Below are positions 13,300 through 33,806 of a stretch of DNA of 37,124 bases, piece by piece (position 1 is the stretch's first letter; each line of letters begins with the position of its first letter). The translations under genes were made by a program, and so were the position numbers. The notes beneath the pieces were generated by a model. The model saw only the letters and a program-made list of their open reading frames with translations. It searched no databases and was not told the origin of the DNA. Source of the DNA: Flavobacteriales bacterium. Its GTDB lineage: Bacteria > Bacteroidota > Bacteroidia > Flavobacteriales_D > Crocinitomicaceae. The stretch spans positions 1 to 37,124 of the forward strand of contig RFPM01000009.1 in the NCBI GenBank assembly GCA_009926125.1, written 5' to 3'.

Positions 13300-14415
13300 A
13301 TGTCTGATTTTATAGTTTCTGCACGTAAATATCGCCCACAAACCTTCGATACTGTTGTCGGACAGCACGCTATTACAGAAACTTTAAAAAAAGGAATTCA
13401 GAATAAGCACCTTGCTCAAGCATTTCTTTTTTGTGGGTCTAGAGGTGTGGGAAAAACAACAACTGCTCGAATTTTAGCAAAGACAATCAATTGTTTTAAT
13501 CGAAGTGAAGCAATTGAGGCTTGTGATACCTGTGATTCATGTATTTCCTTTAATACTGGGAATTCATTAAATGTATTTGAATTAGATGGAGCCTCCAATA
13601 ATTCCGTAGACGATATCCGTAATTTAATTGACCAAGTTCGCATACTTCCGCAATTAGGAACACACAAAATATTTATAATTGATGAGGTTCACATGCTATC
13701 AACTAACGCATTTAATGCTTTTCTAAAAACCTTGGAAGAACCACCAAAACATGCTATTTTTATTTTAGCGACGACTGAAAAACATAAAATAATTCCAACA
13801 ATTCTCTCACGCTGCCAAATTTTTGATTTTGGTCGAATTCGCGTGAAAGATATGGCAGAACACCTAGCTCAAATTTCCCTCAAGGAAAATGTAAGTGCAG
13901 AAAATGAGGCATTACATATTATTGCAATGAAAGCAGATGGCTCTCTTCGCGATGCCTTGTCAATTTTTGATCAAATCGTAACATTTGCTGGAAATAAAAT
14001 AAGCTATTCTGATGTAATTGAAAACTTGAATATCTTAGATTATGACTATTACTTCAAACTTACCGAAGCAATTGAAAAAGAAGATATTTCAGCAACACTT
14101 ATTATTCTTAATGAAATTTACGAAAAAGGTTTTGATGGTCATAATTTTATCATTGGACTTGCGGAACATTACCGAAACTTATTAGTGTGTAAAGACGAAC
14201 GCTCAGCAAGTTTACTAGAGGTGCCAGAAGCTATACAACAGCGATTTATTGACCTATCGAAAGAAATTGATTCTCCTCGCATTCTACGTACGCTAATGGC
14301 AATTAGTAAAACGGATACTGAATTTAAATCTTCAAAAAATCAGCGTTTACTCATTGAAGTAACACTCATGCTCTTGTGTTCTCTTAAACAAGAGAACGAA
14401 AAAAAAAATCCCTGA
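13300..14415 (+). CDS. dnaX: DNA polymerase III subunit gamma (DnaX, zero-frame product)
   Basis: The clamp-loader ATPase of the replicase. This frame gives 371 residues: Walker A GSRGVGKT (46-53), a zinc site of four cysteines (65, 75, 78, 81), Walker B IIDEVHML (126-133), sensor 1 near ATTEKHK and the SRC motif (170-172), then the lid and collar region (domains II-III). That is about the length of the gamma form, domains I-III. The frame ends with QENEKKNP and TGA directly after a run of ten A residues (14399-14408). The tau-specific part follows in the -1 frame (14406-15017), so the complete gene spans 13300-15017 and a shifted product would have 572 residues. See the recoding-site entry. 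The promoter predicts a leaderless mRNA. Confidence 0.93.
   Translation: MSDFIVSARKYRPQTFDTVVGQHAITETLKKGIQNKHLAQAFLFCGSRGVGKTTTARILAKTINCFNRSEAIEACDTCDSCISFNTGNSLNVFELDGASNNSVDDIRNLIDQVRILPQLGTHKIFIIDEVHMLSTNAFNAFLKTLEEPPKHAIFILATTEKHKIIPTILSRCQIFDFGRIRVKDMAEHLAQISLKENVSAENEALHIIAMKADGSLRDALSIFDQIVTFAGNKISYSDVIENLNILDYDYYFKLTEAIEKEDISATLIILNEIYEKGFDGHNFIIGLAEHYRNLLVCKDERSASLLEVPEAIQQRFIDLSKEIDSPRILRTLMAISKTDTEFKSSKNQRLLIEVTLMLLCSLKQENEKKNP
14378..14408 (+). other. dnaX recoding or slippage site: 8-bp hairpin abutting an A10 run
   Basis: The arm GTTCTCTT (14378-14385), loop AAAC (14386-14389) and arm AAGAGAAC (14390-14397) form a perfect 8-bp hairpin, extendable by a U-G pair (14377 with 14398). 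The ten A residues at 14399-14408 follow at once. Read as codons the run contains the slippery heptamer A-AAA-AAA in the correct phase for a -1 shift (14400-14406). Either a -1 ribosomal frameshift or insertion of one A (or loss of two) by RNA polymerase joins gamma to the tau part. A miscounted homopolymer in the assembly would look the same in the DNA, apart from the hairpin. Confidence 0.65.
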
Positions 14416-15017
14416 CGGATCGCATTGATATTCTTCCTTCTGCAATTCAAACATTGCGAAAAAAACAAAAGGTCGAAAAACCAAAGGAAACTCTAGTAAA
14501 AAAAATAATAGAAAAAGAAGAGGAAACCCTAAAAATTGTCTCTGAACCAAGTGGAAAATTAAATCAAGTTCATTTATCTATTAAAAAAATTATCGAAAAC
14601 GATAAAAAGAAAATAGTAGATAAAAACAATGAAAAATTACCTGAAGAAAGGTATTCAATAGAACATCTAAAAATGTATTGGCAACAATTTGCATTTACAA
14701 TGAAAGAAAAAGGAATGGAAACATTCTACCAAGCATTGGTAAAACGCGAACCACTTTTTATTGCAGAAGATAGATTTGGTGTTGAACTAGACAACAATGT
14801 TCAATTGGATTATATAAAGCAGCTTTTAGCAGACTTTACTGATTTTCTGAGAACTAATCTTCAGAATTATAATCTTACAATTGAGTTAATCCTTACAGAT
14901 AATCCACTTAAAGAAATAAAATACTTAACCGGAAAAGATAAATTTGCTGCAATGGCAAGTAAGAATCCAAATTTAAATACCTTAAAAAATATTTTCAATT
15001 TAGATATTGAATACTAA
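14406..15017 (+). CDS. dnaX: DnaX tau-specific C-terminal part, read after a -1 shift
   Basis: This -1 frame continues the dnaX gene for 203 codons: KSLTDRIDILPSAIQTL, a Lys/Glu-rich linker (about 90 residues), then a folded domain HLKMYWQQFAFTMKEKGMETF ... FGVELDNNVQLDYIKQLL ... LTGKDKFAAMASKNPNLNTL, which matches the conserved end of Bacteroidota DnaX. In other bacteria the tau-specific part binds DnaB helicase and the polymerase alpha subunit. The first in-frame start-like codon is a TTG at 14454, but the conserved sequence begins before it at the A run and there is no promoter, so I do not treat it as a separate gene. The menE-like gene follows after a few bases. Confidence 0.8.
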   Translation, partial: KSLTDRIDILPSAIQTLRKKQKVEKPKETLVKKIIEKEEETLKIVSEPSGKLNQVHLSIKKIIENDKKKIVDKNNEKLPEERYSIEHLKMYWQQFAFTMKEKGMETFYQALVKREPLFIAEDRFGVELDNNVQLDYIKQLLADFTDFLRTNLQNYNLTIELILTDNPLKEIKYLTGKDKFAAMASKNPNLNTLKNIFNLDIEY

Positions 15018-15020
15018 GCA

Positions 15021-16049
15021 TTGAAATTAATGCATAAAATAGCGCTTTATTATGATGACACTAGCAGAAAAGAAGAAGTTACTTCTTTTATAAAAAGCTG
15101 GGGAAATGATGAAAAAGTTATTGCTATTTATACTTCTGGATCTACTGGAAATCCAAAAAAAATTGAACTAGCAAAAGAAAAAATGCAGATTTCCGCAAGA
15201 AAAACACTGGAATATTTTAAACTTGAAGAAGGAAGTAGCGCGCTCTTATGTCTTTCTCTTGAAACAATTGCAGGAAAAATGATGCTTGTACGTTCACTTA
15301 TTGGAGGATTAAAACTTCATGTTGTAACAGTGTTAACTAATCCAATATTAGCGCTAAAAAACCCGATTGATTTTGTAGCACTTGTTCCTATGCAATTAGA
15401 AGCAGCAGTAGATACAGCTTTCGAAAAATTAAAGTCAATTAAGACTATTTTGGTTGGTGGAGCTCCTGTTTCAGAAGAATTAATTCAGAAATTAAAAGAC
15501 AAAAAGATTACAGTGTTTCAAAGTTATGGAATGACCGAAACAATTTCCCACGTTGCAATTCGAAAAATTGGATTTGAAACTGAAGAATACTATCAAGCAT
15601 TACCGGGAATAACATTTAGTAGTGATGAACAACGTTTAATAATTGACTATCCAGAAGTATTAAGTGAAAAATTACGAACAAACGACTGCGTTAATTTGAT
15701 TGATTCAAAACATTTTCAATATCTGAACCGCTATGACTTTATTATTAATACCGGAGGGATAAAAGTAAATCCAGAGGAAATTGAGTTAAAATTAAAACCC
15801 CTCCTCAAACAACCTTTTTTTATTTGGTTTGTGAAAGATGTTCATTTAGGACAAAAAATTGTTCTAGTAGTTCAAGAAAAGGTAAATCTTAAGTTCAAAA
15901 AAAAGGATTTCACTCACTATCTTAATAAGTATGAAATTCCAAAAAACTACTGTCAAATTAAAGATTTTGTTCTTAGTAAAAGTCAAAAAATTGATAGGAT
16001 TAAGACAATGCAGACGATCGATTTTAAGCAATGGAAGATTATAGAATGA
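15021..16049 (+). CDS. menE: AMP-binding ligase, probably o-succinylbenzoate-CoA ligase (MenE)
   Basis: An adenylate-forming enzyme of 342 aa, the short form usual for MenE in Bacteroidota; it would activate o-succinylbenzoate with CoA in menaquinone synthesis. Visible are the P-loop TSGSTGNPK (38-46), the mid-region VALVPMQLEA, GGAPVSEELI, SYGMTETISHV (the A5 motif) and RYDFIINTGGIKVNPEEIE (the A7-A8 hinge), with SKSQKIDRIKT containing the C-terminal lysine. The start is uncertain: TTG at 15021, 3 bases after the dnaX stop, or ATG at 15030, which gives a protein beginning MHKIALYYDD. I cannot exclude another acyl-CoA ligase, but length and motif order favour MenE. No other men gene is in the window. 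Confidence 0.75.
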   Translation: MKLMHKIALYYDDTSRKEEVTSFIKSWGNDEKVIAIYTSGSTGNPKKIELAKEKMQISARKTLEYFKLEEGSSALLCLSLETIAGKMMLVRSLIGGLKLHVVTVLTNPILALKNPIDFVALVPMQLEAAVDTAFEKLKSIKTILVGGAPVSEELIQKLKDKKITVFQSYGMTETISHVAIRKIGFETEEYYQALPGITFSSDEQRLIIDYPEVLSEKLRTNDCVNLIDSKHFQYLNRYDFIINTGGIKVNPEEIELKLKPLLKQPFFIWFVKDVHLGQKIVLVVQEKVNLKFKKKDFTHYLNKYEIPKNYCQIKDFVLSKSQKIDRIKTMQTIDFKQWKIIE

Positions 16050-16068
16050 AATTATTATTTAATTCAAA

Positions 16069-16713
16069 ATGACAAAAAAAGAAAAAGCAGCATATATAAT
16101 TAACGAATTGGATATCTTATTTCCTGAGACACCTATTCCACTGAATCATTCAGATCCATACACACTTTTAATTGCAGTTCTATTATCTGCTCAATGCACA
16201 GATGAACGAGTTAATAAAATAACGCCTTTACTTTTCAAAAAAGGCCCTTCTCCATTTGAAATGGTAAAATTAAGTGTTGAAGAAATAAAAGCAATCATTC
16301 GGCCCTGCGGACTTTCTCCAAAAAAATCACAAGCAATTTGGAATCTTTCCGCTATCTTAATTGCAAAATATAAAGGAGAAGTGCCAGTTTCATTTGAATT
16401 ATTAGAGGAGTTGCCGGGCGTTGGACACAAAACTGCATCTGTTGTTATGTCACAAGCTTTTGGGTTCCCTGCTTTTCCTGTTGATACACACATTCATCGA
16501 TTATTAACCCGTTGGGGAATTAGCTCAGGAAAAAATGTAGTTGAAACTGAAAAAGCAGCAAAAAAAGTATTTCCAATTGAAACATGGAACAAGCTCCACC
16601 TTCAAATTATATTTTATGGCAGATTATTTTCTCCTGCTAGAAGCCCTAAATTAGCAAATGATTATATTACTAGAAGTATTGGTACTACTCGTGCTTTAAA
16701 AGAATTAAAATGA
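16069..16713 (+). CDS. nth: Endonuclease III-like DNA glycosylase lacking the iron-sulfur loop
   Basis: A 214-aa base-excision-repair enzyme that would remove oxidised pyrimidines and nick the abasic site. The helix-hairpin-helix is ELPGVGHKTASVV (114-126) with the catalytic lysine at 121; the catalytic aspartate is D139 in PVDTHIHRL. LLSAQCTD (38-45) is the usual N-terminal signature. The C-terminus (YGRLFSPARSPKLANDYITRSIG) aligns with the GR-x-C-x6-C-x2-C-x5-C end of endonuclease III, but none of the four cysteines is present, so no [4Fe-4S] cluster can bind. It lies 19 bases after the menE-like gene and is probably co-transcribed. Confidence 0.88.
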   Translation: MTKKEKAAYIINELDILFPETPIPLNHSDPYTLLIAVLLSAQCTDERVNKITPLLFKKGPSPFEMVKLSVEEIKAIIRPCGLSPKKSQAIWNLSAILIAKYKGEVPVSFELLEELPGVGHKTASVVMSQAFGFPAFPVDTHIHRLLTRWGISSGKNVVETEKAAKKVFPIETWNKLHLQIIFYGRLFSPARSPKLANDYITRSIGTTRALKELK

Positions 16714-16775
16714 TATTAACAAGTGTTCATAAATAGCACTCAAATCTTTTTATAAAGTAATTGCATCTTTATTTT

Positions 16776-16803
16776 TTTGAAGGATTTTCATTTGTTATAT
16801 TTG
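16776..16803 (+). promoter_or_regulatory. Promoter of dnaB (TTTG-N16-TATATTTG), leaderless geometry
   Basis: TTTG at 16776-16779, 16 bases, then TATATTTG at 16796-16803, an exact TAnnTTTG match, then 4 bases to the dnaB ATG at 16808. Spacing is the same, base for base, as for dnaX, and predicts a transcript starting at or next to the start codon. Confidence 0.68.
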
Positions 16804-16807
16804 TTGT

Positions 16808-18364
16808 ATGGATCCAATAGATAACAATCGCAAACCAATTTCTCGTATAAAAAGCCCTTCAGTACTTAGCGGAGACATTGGGAAGCTTCCACCTCAAGCA
16901 ATCGAAATTGAACAAGTTATTCTTGGAGCAATGATGTTGGAAAAAAGTGCGATAGATGATTGTGTTGAAATCATAAACCAAAATAGTTTTTACGATCCAA
17001 AACACCAAATAATATTTAAAACCATTCGCGACTTATTCGCATCAACAAATCCTGTAGATTTAGTAACTGTAACTTCTAGACTTCAAAAAAATGGAGAATT
17101 AGCAGCAGCAGGTGGCGCAGGATATATTTCATCGCTCACAAATCGAGTTGCTTCCTCAGCACACATTCAATTCCATGCTCGAATAATCACCGAAAAATTT
17201 ATAAAAAGAGAACTCATTCGTGTTAGCAGTGAAATAATTCGAGATGCTTACGATGAAACATGTGATGTCTTTGAATTATTAAATAGTGCTGAGTCAAACT
17301 TGTTTCAAATTGCAGAAAACAACATGAGCAAACAAGCTCTAAGTATGAAAAATCTTCTTGGAGAAGCAATACAGGAAATAGAAAAAGCTTCAAAAAATAA
17401 AGATGGAATTTCAGGAGTAGCTTCAGGTTTTCATGATTTAGATAAAATTACTGCTGGATGGCAACGTTCAGATATGATTGTTTTAGCAGCAAGACCTGGA
17501 ATGGGAAAAACAGCTTTTATACTTTCTATGGCTAGAAATACAGCAATTGATCACAAAATGGGTGTTGCAATTTTTTCCTTGGAAATGTCATCGGTGCAAT
17601 TGGTAAAACGATTAATTGCAAGTGAGGCTCGAATTGATTCAGTTAAATTACGAAAGGGAGAATTAGAAGACCATGAATTCCAACAAATGCATTCACGTAT
17701 AGTTAATTTATCAAGTGCTCCAATTTTTATAGATGATACACCAGGACTTAGTATTTTTGACTTTAGAGCAAAATGTCGGCGTTTGAAAGCTCAACATAAT
17801 GTAGAATTAATAATCATAGATTACCTTCAATTAATGTCTGCTAAAGATGGAAAAGGATATGGGAATCGCGAACAAGAAATTTCTACAATCTCTCGGTCTA
17901 TTAAAGAAATTGCGAAAGAATTAAATGTTCCAATTATTGCACTTGCTCAGTTAAGTAGAGCAGTAGAATCACGCGGTGGAGAAAAGCGCCCTATGCTTTC
18001 TGACTTGCGTGAATCGGGAGCTATAGAACAAGATGCAGACATTGTTTCATTTATTTACCGTCCAGAAACATATGGTTTAACTACCAATGACAATGGAGAT
18101 TCAACGCAAGGAATGGCAGAAATTATAATTGCAAAACATAGAAATGGACAAACTGGAAGAGTTAATTTACGTTTTGTTCCTGAGTTTGCTCGTTTTGAAA
18201 ATTTGCATGAAGTAAGTGATCTTGAATTATCTAAACCGTTAAAAAACAATCTTTCAACATTTAATCAAGATTCAAATACCTATACTCTTCCCAGTAAAAT
18301 GAATTCTTCGGAGGATCAGAATGAAGAATTTAATCAAAATGAAGATGAGGACAATCCATTTTAA
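16808..18364 (+). CDS. dnaB: Replicative DNA helicase DnaB
   Basis: A full-length (518 aa) hexameric helicase of the replication fork. The N-terminal domain begins with LPPQAIEIEQVILGAMMLEK and ends near residue 165; a linker joins it to the RecA-like ATPase domain starting ISGVASGFHDLDKITAGWQ. Walker A is ARPGMGKT (about 229-236), Walker B IIIDYLQLM, followed by KEIAKELNVPIIALAQLSR and SDLRESGAIEQDADI. The C-terminal 50 residues are an Asn/Glu-rich tail ending in DEDNPF, common in the phylum. No intein or insertion is present. The secreted asnB-like gene follows after 4 bases. Sharing the dnaX promoter layout suggests matched expression of two replisome genes. Confidence 0.97.
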   Translation: MDPIDNNRKPISRIKSPSVLSGDIGKLPPQAIEIEQVILGAMMLEKSAIDDCVEIINQNSFYDPKHQIIFKTIRDLFASTNPVDLVTVTSRLQKNGELAAAGGAGYISSLTNRVASSAHIQFHARIITEKFIKRELIRVSSEIIRDAYDETCDVFELLNSAESNLFQIAENNMSKQALSMKNLLGEAIQEIEKASKNKDGISGVASGFHDLDKITAGWQRSDMIVLAARPGMGKTAFILSMARNTAIDHKMGVAIFSLEMSSVQLVKRLIASEARIDSVKLRKGELEDHEFQQMHSRIVNLSSAPIFIDDTPGLSIFDFRAKCRRLKAQHNVELIIIDYLQLMSAKDGKGYGNREQEISTISRSIKEIAKELNVPIIALAQLSRAVESRGGEKRPMLSDLRESGAIEQDADIVSFIYRPETYGLTTNDNGDSTQGMAEIIIAKHRNGQTGRVNLRFVPEFARFENLHEVSDLELSKPLKNNLSTFNQDSNTYTLPSKMNSSEDQNEEFNQNEDEDNPF

Positions 18365-31909: not shown

Positions 31910-33058
31910 TCAGCTATTCTTTTTTAATGTATCGCAAAATTGGATTAGCGAATCTGAAAATTTAGTCCACATGTCATTTAAAAGTAAATTTTCGATCTTT
32001 AAATTTTCTTCAACCTGAGTCAATTTATTTTCATTAAAAATCTCCTCTATTTTATTTTGAATAGCTAAAGGATTTATTTCATTCAAGATAAATCCATTTT
32101 TTTCATCAACAATATCTTCTACTAATCCTCCAACATTTGAAATTAAAACCGGCAAACAAAAAGAGTTTGCAAGTGCTTGAATACCACTCTGAGTTGCTGA
32201 TTTATAAGGTAGAACACACAAATCTGCTACGCTAAAATAAAGCTTGACATCTTGCTCATTAATAAATTGATTGACAAAATGAATGTTTTTATTTTTAGAT
32301 TTTGCAATTAAGTTAGTATACGTAATTTCATCACCATAAACCTCACCAGCAATAAGCAAAATGAACTCCTTATTTAAATTTGAAAATGCTTGCAATAGTA
32401 AATCTAAGCCCTTGTAATTTCTTATCAAGCCAAAAAATAAAAGTATTTTTTTTGTGGGATCTAAACCTAAAGCTTCAGCAGCCTCTTTTCTCGCAATTTT
32501 TTCACCAAACTGATTGTAAGATGGATGCTTCAACAAGCAATACTTCGCAGCAGGATCAATGGCAAGTAAATCCTTTTTTACAGACTCAGAAAGGACAATA
32601 AAACCATCGTAAGACTTTACAAATATTCGATTAAAAAAGGTGTCAAAAAATCTTTTTTCGTGCGGTATCAGGTTATGAATAATTGCAATTTTTAAACAAT
32701 CTTTTTTAAAAGATTTTGAGAAAAAAACATTCATGGGAGCAAAAAATGTCATCCAATAATTTGTAATAAAAATAGTAGGCGAAGATTTCTTGAGTTGCCT
32801 TACGGCGCTAAAATAACTTAAAGGATTAAAGCCAGAAACAATTCTAGGATAACTTTTTGAAAGCTTATTTAGACTCAATTGTGTTTTTCCAGGAAATAAA
32901 AAATTAGGGTATTGTTTTTTAAAGGTAAATGCCTTCAAGTCGTATTGCTGTTCCATTGCGCTGACAACTAATTCACTGAAATCCGAAATGCCTCCTCGAT
33001 AAGGAGGAAGTGCTGAAAAAAAGACTACTTTATGTGTTGATTTTTTCATTTTAATCAT
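31910..33058 (-). CDS. Glycosyltransferase family 4 (GT-B) protein
   Basis: A 382-aa retaining glycosyltransferase with the GT-B double fold. The N-terminal domain starts SALPPYRGGISDFSE; the C-terminal domain has KKILLFFGLIRNYKGLDLLL, LLIAGEVYG, ADLCVLPYKSATQSGIQALA and PVLISNVGGLVEDIV, with the ATQSG variant that Bacteroidota GT4 enzymes often show in place of the first E of EX7E. Donor and acceptor are unknown. It starts at 33058, overlapping the stop of the MORN-protein gene by 8 bases (MKKS at 33049 is an alternative start), and is the last gene of a four-gene operon. The neighbours suggest work on lipid-linked or surface glycans. Confidence 0.85.
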   Translation of the reverse strand: MIKMKKSTHKVVFFSALPPYRGGISDFSELVVSAMEQQYDLKAFTFKKQYPNFLFPGKTQLSLNKLSKSYPRIVSGFNPLSYFSAVRQLKKSSPTIFITNYWMTFFAPMNVFFSKSFKKDCLKIAIIHNLIPHEKRFFDTFFNRIFVKSYDGFIVLSESVKKDLLAIDPAAKYCLLKHPSYNQFGEKIARKEAAEALGLDPTKKILLFFGLIRNYKGLDLLLQAFSNLNKEFILLIAGEVYGDEITYTNLIAKSKNKNIHFVNQFINEQDVKLYFSVADLCVLPYKSATQSGIQALANSFCLPVLISNVGGLVEDIVDEKNGFILNEINPLAIQNKIEEIFNENKLTQVEENLKIENLLLNDMWTKFSDSLIQFCDTLKKNS

Positions 33059-33806
33059 TTGGATCTATCCCATTCTTGGTACAATTTTCAAAAAATAAAT
33101 CTAATTCTTTTCCTTTCAATCTAGTGCCATTTTGAAAAAATACCTCAGATATTTTTAATCCGTTTTTATCGTAACTATAAACCCAAGTATGAACCTTGTC
33201 GTTCTTAAATTTTGCTTTTTGAGCTATTTGCCCATTGGGATGGTATTCTAACCATTCACCATCCTTAAGTCCATTTTGAAAAACACCTTTTTTTTTTATT
33301 TTTCCAGTGCTAAAAAATTCAGTATAAAGTCCATTTAGTGTGTCTTTCTTATAATTTGAAATAGATAAAGGAATCAGAACATTATTATCGATTTGCCCCT
33401 CTGTATAATATATTATTGCTTCTCCGTTCAATTGATTTTTCTCAAAGGTTTCCTTACTTGATAAGGCGCCATAAAGATTATATGAATACCAAACAGAATC
33501 CTTTAAGTTATTTTCATAAAAGCCTCGAGAGAGTATAGCATTATTCTCAAAATAAAAAGTTGCAAACGAAAGATTTGAATTTGGGATGTGTTTAATAATT
33601 GATTTTATTTTTCCGCTTTCATAATAATAAGTAAACTCTCCAATTGCCTTGTCATCTTTAAATTGACCTTTGTAAATAAAAGTATTACTTCCCGGATATT
33701 TTTTATTCCAAACGCCCTGTTTTTGACCTTTGGCGTCTTTTTCATTGACTTGTGAAACGCTCAAAAGTGGAAGGAAAAGTAGAAGAATATAAAGTAGTTT
33801 ATTCAT
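33051..33806 (-). CDS. Secreted MORN-like repeat protein
   Basis: A 251-aa protein with a signal peptide (MNKLLYILLLFLPLLSVSQ) and repeated MORN-variant units: GQKQGVWNKKYPGSNTFIYK, KAIGEFTYYYESGKIKSI, NLKDSVWYSYNLYGALSSK, NGEAIIYYTEGQ, NGLYTEFFSTGKIKKKG, and DGEWLEYHPNGQIAQKAKF. Such beta-hairpin repeats (often called YwqK-like antitoxin domains in automatic annotation) mostly act as binding scaffolds. The antitoxin label is unsupported here since no toxin is adjacent and the protein is exported. It overlaps its neighbours by 4 and 8 bases in the glycan operon, so it is likely translated with them. Confidence 0.75.
   Translation of the reverse strand: MNKLLYILLLFLPLLSVSQVNEKDAKGQKQGVWNKKYPGSNTFIYKGQFKDDKAIGEFTYYYESGKIKSIIKHIPNSNLSFATFYFENNAILSRGFYENNLKDSVWYSYNLYGALSSKETFEKNQLNGEAIIYYTEGQIDNNVLIPLSISNYKKDTLNGLYTEFFSTGKIKKKGVFQNGLKDGEWLEYHPNGQIAQKAKFKNDKVHTWVYSYDKNGLKISEVFFQNGTRLKGKELDLFFENCTKNGIDPND

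Follow-up and report, generated by a model that had tools for sequence, protein, structure and literature searches.

The dnaX gene of the window (the whole stretch of 37,124 nucleotides analysed) quite likely carries a programmed transcriptional slippage site, composed of a run of ten A residues (A10) and a 5' hairpin, from which a mixture of RNAs would give both tau and gamma-type subunits. Judged from the sequence, the long form of dnaX is probably made only upon slippage by the copying machinery. A broader reading, with an even chance of being correct, is that much of the class Bacteroidia carries a dnaX slippage cassette, made up of the hairpin, exactly ten A's and stops in both non-tau frames, and that the polymerase would mix the frames so thoroughly that the template tau frame changed many times while the cassette was kept.

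Anatomy of the split dnaX gene

The features of the gene are listed in Table 1. Beyond the A10 run lie TCCC and the TGA that closes the zero frame, and the zero-frame product comprises 371 aa (41.9 kDa) with the C-terminus ENEKKNP. With one A more at the run, a single open frame extends to the TAA at the end of the tau part, encoding 572 aa (65.6 kDa). The first part of the gene matches through domain III (PF12169; NF011531 profile positions 1-370 of 614), while the second (14409-15014), read in the -1 frame, corresponds to the C-terminal portion of NF011531 (439-613 of 614, E 4e-18). The original prediction placed the zero-frame stop after domain III, four bases past the run, in agreement with the coordinates and the translation, and its assignment of the conserved tau-specific end to the -1 frame is confirmed by the profile match; the forms of ~41 and ~65 kDa that it anticipated correspond to the computed masses. 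At ten A's the run is within the range looked for in programmed transcriptional slippage (nine or more), and the slippery heptamer A-AAA-AAA lies in phase within it, with A-AAA-AAG absent there. Scans of the window against Rfam (gathering thresholds) and for tRNAs gave no match. A menE-like AMP-binding gene, an endonuclease III-like gene (HhH-GPD) and dnaB (16808-18364) follow downstream of dnaX (15021-18364); in other bacteria, tau partners with the helicase that dnaB encodes.

Table 1. Coordinates of the dnaX features in the window
Feature	Position	Strand	Details
dnaX zero-frame ORF, gamma-type product, domains I-III	13300..14415	+	371 aa
RNA hairpin, proposed slippage stimulator	14377..14398	+	8 Watson-Crick pairs and a closing U-G; abuts the A run
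A10 run, candidate slippage site	14399..14408	+	conserved
TGA closing the zero frame (gamma)	14413..14415	+	
TGA closing the third frame (RNA with 9 or 12 A's)	14426..14428	+	predicted 375-aa gamma-type product
tau-specific part, -1 frame	14409..15017	+	stop TAA 15015-15017

Under the proposed mechanism, RNA polymerase would copy the A10 run while a hairpin in the nascent RNA, formed immediately behind the run, weakens the RNA-DNA hybrid, and some transcripts would gain or lose A's there. RNAs with 11 A's, or with another length in phase, would encode tau, while those with 10 A's, or with 9 or 12, would meet a stop within a few codons and give gamma-type clamp-loader subunits of 371 or 375 aa. 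Both subunits would thus be supplied by ordinary translation of the mixed RNA pool. We infer the occurrence of slippage, its stimulation by the hairpin and any tau:gamma ratio that would result.

Conservation of the A10 run in the genus and family

The source genome is a draft metagenome assembly (1.51 Mb, 157 contigs, 81% complete), a circumstance that lends itself to explaining the split as a homopolymer miscount, with a true run of A11 or A8 as the original prediction allowed, or as a decaying gene. Comparing the run with that of close relatives had been proposed at the outset, and among 50 unique loci read from the genus of the window it is A10 in 49 and A11 in one, with the split in the identical direction, tau in the -1 frame, in all. 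Furthermore, the tau part was found in 79 of the 86 genomes of the genus. The separately assembled locus L062 (CAMCYF010000041.1), whose protein is 98% identical to that of the window in residues 1-371, likewise carries A10, its tau part being interrupted by the contig end, and A10 occurs in three single-contig genomes of the family (L192, L193 and L196). Because the run is kept across the genus loci, L062 and the single-contig genomes, a miscount is rejected, and error or decay together are left as a barely credible account of the split. The record CAMCYF010000041.1 is titled Chitinophaga pinensis, a title that looks wrong; the family of the window has genomes exactly matching Crocinitomix-titled records.

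The rest of the family was represented by 43 unique loci, with A10 in 29 and A11 in five, all of these with tau in the -1 frame, one further A11 locus (L149) with tau in the zero frame, and eight loci with short runs or none. The L149 gene (G229) combines A11 with an uninterrupted tau, while its three congeners combine A10 with the split, a natural switch by one A. An uninterrupted dnaX lacking any A run, named beforehand as a finding that would speak against the split, exists in distant Bacteroidota, e.g. the Bacteroidaceae loci L132, L135, L138 and L139, which have no run of six or more A's, but none occurs among the genus loci read. Conservation across the genus and elsewhere in Bacteroidia supports the claim that the gene yields gamma by default, with tau requiring either a -1 shift or one extra A.

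Fifteen exact A10 runs are present in the 1.51 Mb genome (both strands). Within open frames such runs are mildly avoided (6 seen against 7.9 expected, in stretches partly chosen for holding A10, which raises the count), and runs of 11 or more A's are absent from open frames, with approximately 5.4 expected. The A10 runs inside five other long frames have, by the same criterion as applied to dnaX, no hairpin in front in four cases and a weak one (-2.4) in the fifth; this fits a need for the hairpin, and equally a run that slips little. The window itself has a second A10 run (33288-33297, minus strand), which lies within an intact 251-aa MORN-repeat ORF (33051-33806) and lacks a preceding hairpin. 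Were A10 enough for slippage, the MORN-repeat protein would be affected as well.

Template frames, closed frames and the 5' hairpin among relatives

Reading of the junction in relatives yielded 306 loci with a readable N end, or 289 unique loci after the removal of duplicates (by genome or identical junction), spanning 96 coded or named genera and 37 families. At the site, 231 of these have A10 as their longest run, 20 have A11, 12 have A9 and one has A12, while 10 have six to eight A's and 15 lack a run of at least six. Among the A10 loci with a readable C part, 65 encode tau in the zero frame, 146 in the -1 frame and 18 in the +1 frame, two loci being left out where a contig end cuts the C part; these are not frequency estimates, because the loci were selected, with 120 junction regions hand-picked among the matches listed and later batches consisting mostly of genes with a short open frame. 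The frame was read from inside the run, since a TGA overlapping the run start can hide it. Outside the class, 18 of 20 loci taken were readable, and have A10 (2), A9 (3), A7 (1) or no run (12).

More than one frame state occurs among the A10 genes of five coded families. Two genera also hold more than one frame state, and in both the run length differs as well. On a tree of 100 A10 representatives, in which 40 rows fill less than half of the columns, at least 17 frame-state changes are required, against a mean of 38.2 when the states are shuffled. The frame state is thus clustered on the tree, as well as fixed in the genus of the window, and the frames are not freely exchanged. Orthologs with more than one direction of shift are taken as a sign of transcriptional slippage in the criterion of PMC3711429, as given in its main text, and transcriptional slippage is favoured here because the A10 orthologs need different shift directions. 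A template-frame change around a fixed A10 makes slippage by the RNA polymerase or the ribosome testable through relatives.

A mixed RNA pool calls for stops in both non-tau frames, while a ribosomal -1 shift needs one soon after the site in the frame of the short product only. Both non-tau frames are closed within nine codons in 60 of 65 A10 genes with tau in the zero frame, 17 of 18 with tau in the +1 frame and 145 of 146 with tau in the -1 frame, whereas such double closure is found at 25%, 36% and 28%, respectively, elsewhere in the same genes; the third frame of the window is closed by the second TGA of Table 1. Against synonymous shuffles, in which the tau-frame codons were replaced following the usage of the gene itself, double closure was seen in 251 of 262 loci with runs of 9 to 12 A's, with 99.5 expected, this count omitting the 15 loci whose runs fall short of six A's and the 10 with six to eight. 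It persists among 121 representatives (113 seen against 46.9 expected), which comprise one locus per genus and frame, with loci lacking a genus name counted singly, and which also served for the hairpin analysis.

The hairpin of the window has a folding energy of -9.4 kcal/mol (z -2.65), and three of 200 shuffles fold as well. Among the 121 representatives, the best hairpin ending within four bases of the run, the criterion adopted for the group, has a median of -5.8 kcal/mol, against -0.2 at control places, and such a hairpin is present in 96. The real hairpins are stronger than those of synonymous shuffles of the upstream codons (p 2.5e-7), with 80 of the 121 beating their own shuffle mean and 27 falling in the best 5% (6 expected). 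The codon at positions -7 to -5 is GAG in 83 of 85 family loci, with GAA and CAA in one each; GAG accordingly serves 83 of the 84 loci with Glu there, compared to 365 of the 1441 Glu codons at other positions of these genes. Covariation in the family is modest: across 74 sequences the pairing of five named pairs is kept at 89.2%, one of them showing 25 double changes and 34 unpaired cells, and RNAalifold on these 74 sequences gave a weak consensus of four pairs with zero double changes.

A stem-loop downstream of the run was considered as the main stimulator and rejected, the structure there being weak in 120 representatives (-9.9 against -8.8 kcal/mol, p 0.015) and not unusual in the window (z +0.40). 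Shine-Dalgarno (SD)-like 4-mers are slightly enriched upstream of the run (50 of 121 representatives against 41.3 expected, sd 3.5), and a ribosomal shift driven by them was likewise discarded as a general rule, with the hairpin signal persisting in the 71 representatives that lack such a motif (p 0.001). None of AAGG, AGGA, GGAG and GAGG occurs in the 18 bases before the run in the window.

Alternative readings and known systems

Programmed -1 ribosomal frameshifting on A-AAA-AAA, by which tau would be made in a mirror image of the Escherichia coli arrangement, accommodates the in-phase heptamer of the window, the slight enrichment of SD-like motifs and the A-AAA-AAG that stands at the site in three loci without A10 (L318, L324 and L325), and a Chlorobium candidate with E. 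coli-like signals is described in the parts of PMC5009743 covered. It is nevertheless unlikely, as a -1 shift cannot produce tau at the 18 A10 loci with tau in the +1 frame, such a mechanism gives the closed third frame no role, and the window has neither an SD-like 4-mer within 18 bases upstream of the run nor a downstream structure. Furthermore, a hairpin adjoining the site on its upstream side attenuates -1 shifting according to the sections of PMC6321510 covered, and those of PMC9976891 report that the ribosomes of Bacteroidia do not recognise SD sequences. Of the two routes to tau put forward in the original prediction, an extra A in the RNA fits the comparison better, and the ribosomal -1 shift on the heptamer is less favoured. 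Far more improbable is that gamma and the tau-specific part exist as separate proteins, with translation of the latter restarting near the gamma stop. The second ORF of the window has TTG as its first listed start (14454), and the junction of one run-less clade of the family has this appearance; however, the tau frame is open through the run in the A10 genes and tau is one uninterrupted frame in 65 A10 relatives.

This clade comprises 16 family loci (g23, g29, g30, g203 and g36; L311-L325 and L238) that keep the split and its -1 relation and have no junction run of more than seven A's. In L318, L324 and L325, whose heptamer is that of E. coli dnaX, slippage by the ribosome may have replaced slippage by RNA polymerase at this one site. 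In L311-L313, L315 and L319 the -1 frame meets a TAA shortly upstream of the gamma stop, and slippage at the four or five A's left in their runs therefore cannot yield tau. The junction codon is ATC in 13 of the 16 loci, mostly within ATCTTAAG or a near form, compared to 51 of the other 303 Ile codons of these loci, although the loci are related and the 13 are thus not independent events. L238 has ATG at the place of the junction codon, counted back from the conserved LPF motif, while L320 (ATG) and L316 (GTG) have a start codon one codon before it. The clade as a whole looks more like an overlapping stop and restart than like slippage. Together with the 25 of 121 representatives without a hairpin, the A10 runs in five other frames and the clustering of frame states, it counts against transcriptional slippage, which is still the preferred reading for the A10 genes.

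Should tau depend on slippage by RNA polymerase across a large bacterial group, its supply would be tied to transcription, and if the broader cassette reading is true the composition of the clamp loader would be set by polymerase slippage and not by the reading frame of the gene. dnaX is a core replication gene, and annotation would tend to label its slippage-dependent versions truncated or frameshifted.

The two-ORF dnaX is not new, because Antonov et al. 2013 (PMC3711429), in the main text of their GeneTack survey, described a novel dnaX type in which tau requires recoding (17 genes in 12 genera, A10 being present in nine of the genes) and put forward transcriptional realignment to account for it; Atkins et al. 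2016 (PMC5009743), in the portion covered, restate it as a reversed arrangement. The GeneTack genes have the organisation of the window, with an in-frame gamma stop, the tau part in the -1 frame and A10 at the transition. The main text of that report deals with -1 genes only, whereas A10 is found here also with tau in the 0 and +1 frames, and the closed third frames and the abutting 5' hairpin likewise go beyond that main text. No report of a 5' hairpin or of third-frame stops in Bacteroidota dnaX was found in the portion of the open-access literature covered. The present analysis adds breadth, a single A10 surrounded by several template frames, the closure of the third frame, and a hairpin on the 5' side of the run.

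Three systems described in the covered parts of these and related sources resemble the window in different respects. The E. coli dnaX gene also gives gamma and tau from one gene by a frame change at an A-rich site (PMC3711429, PMC5009743), but there a -1 ribosomal frameshift on A-AAA-AAG makes gamma, with an upstream SD and a downstream stem-loop, both of which the window lacks. The dnaX of Thermus thermophilus, with transcriptional slippage on A9, shares with the window the A run, the stops in both other frames and the two subunits (PMC1088944, PMC5009743), yet in Thermus tau is the templated frame and gamma is produced by slippage, whereas the DNA of the window spells gamma. Finally, the Roseiflexus IS630 element (Penno et al. 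2015, as described in PMC5009743) likewise has a hairpin directly 5' of its slippage motif, and there the stem-loop is reported to enable slippage. The Roseiflexus motif is T5C5, from which one base is lost and for which stimulation by the hairpin has been demonstrated, while in the window the motif is A10 and a stimulating role of the hairpin is suggested by its position and its bias among relatives.
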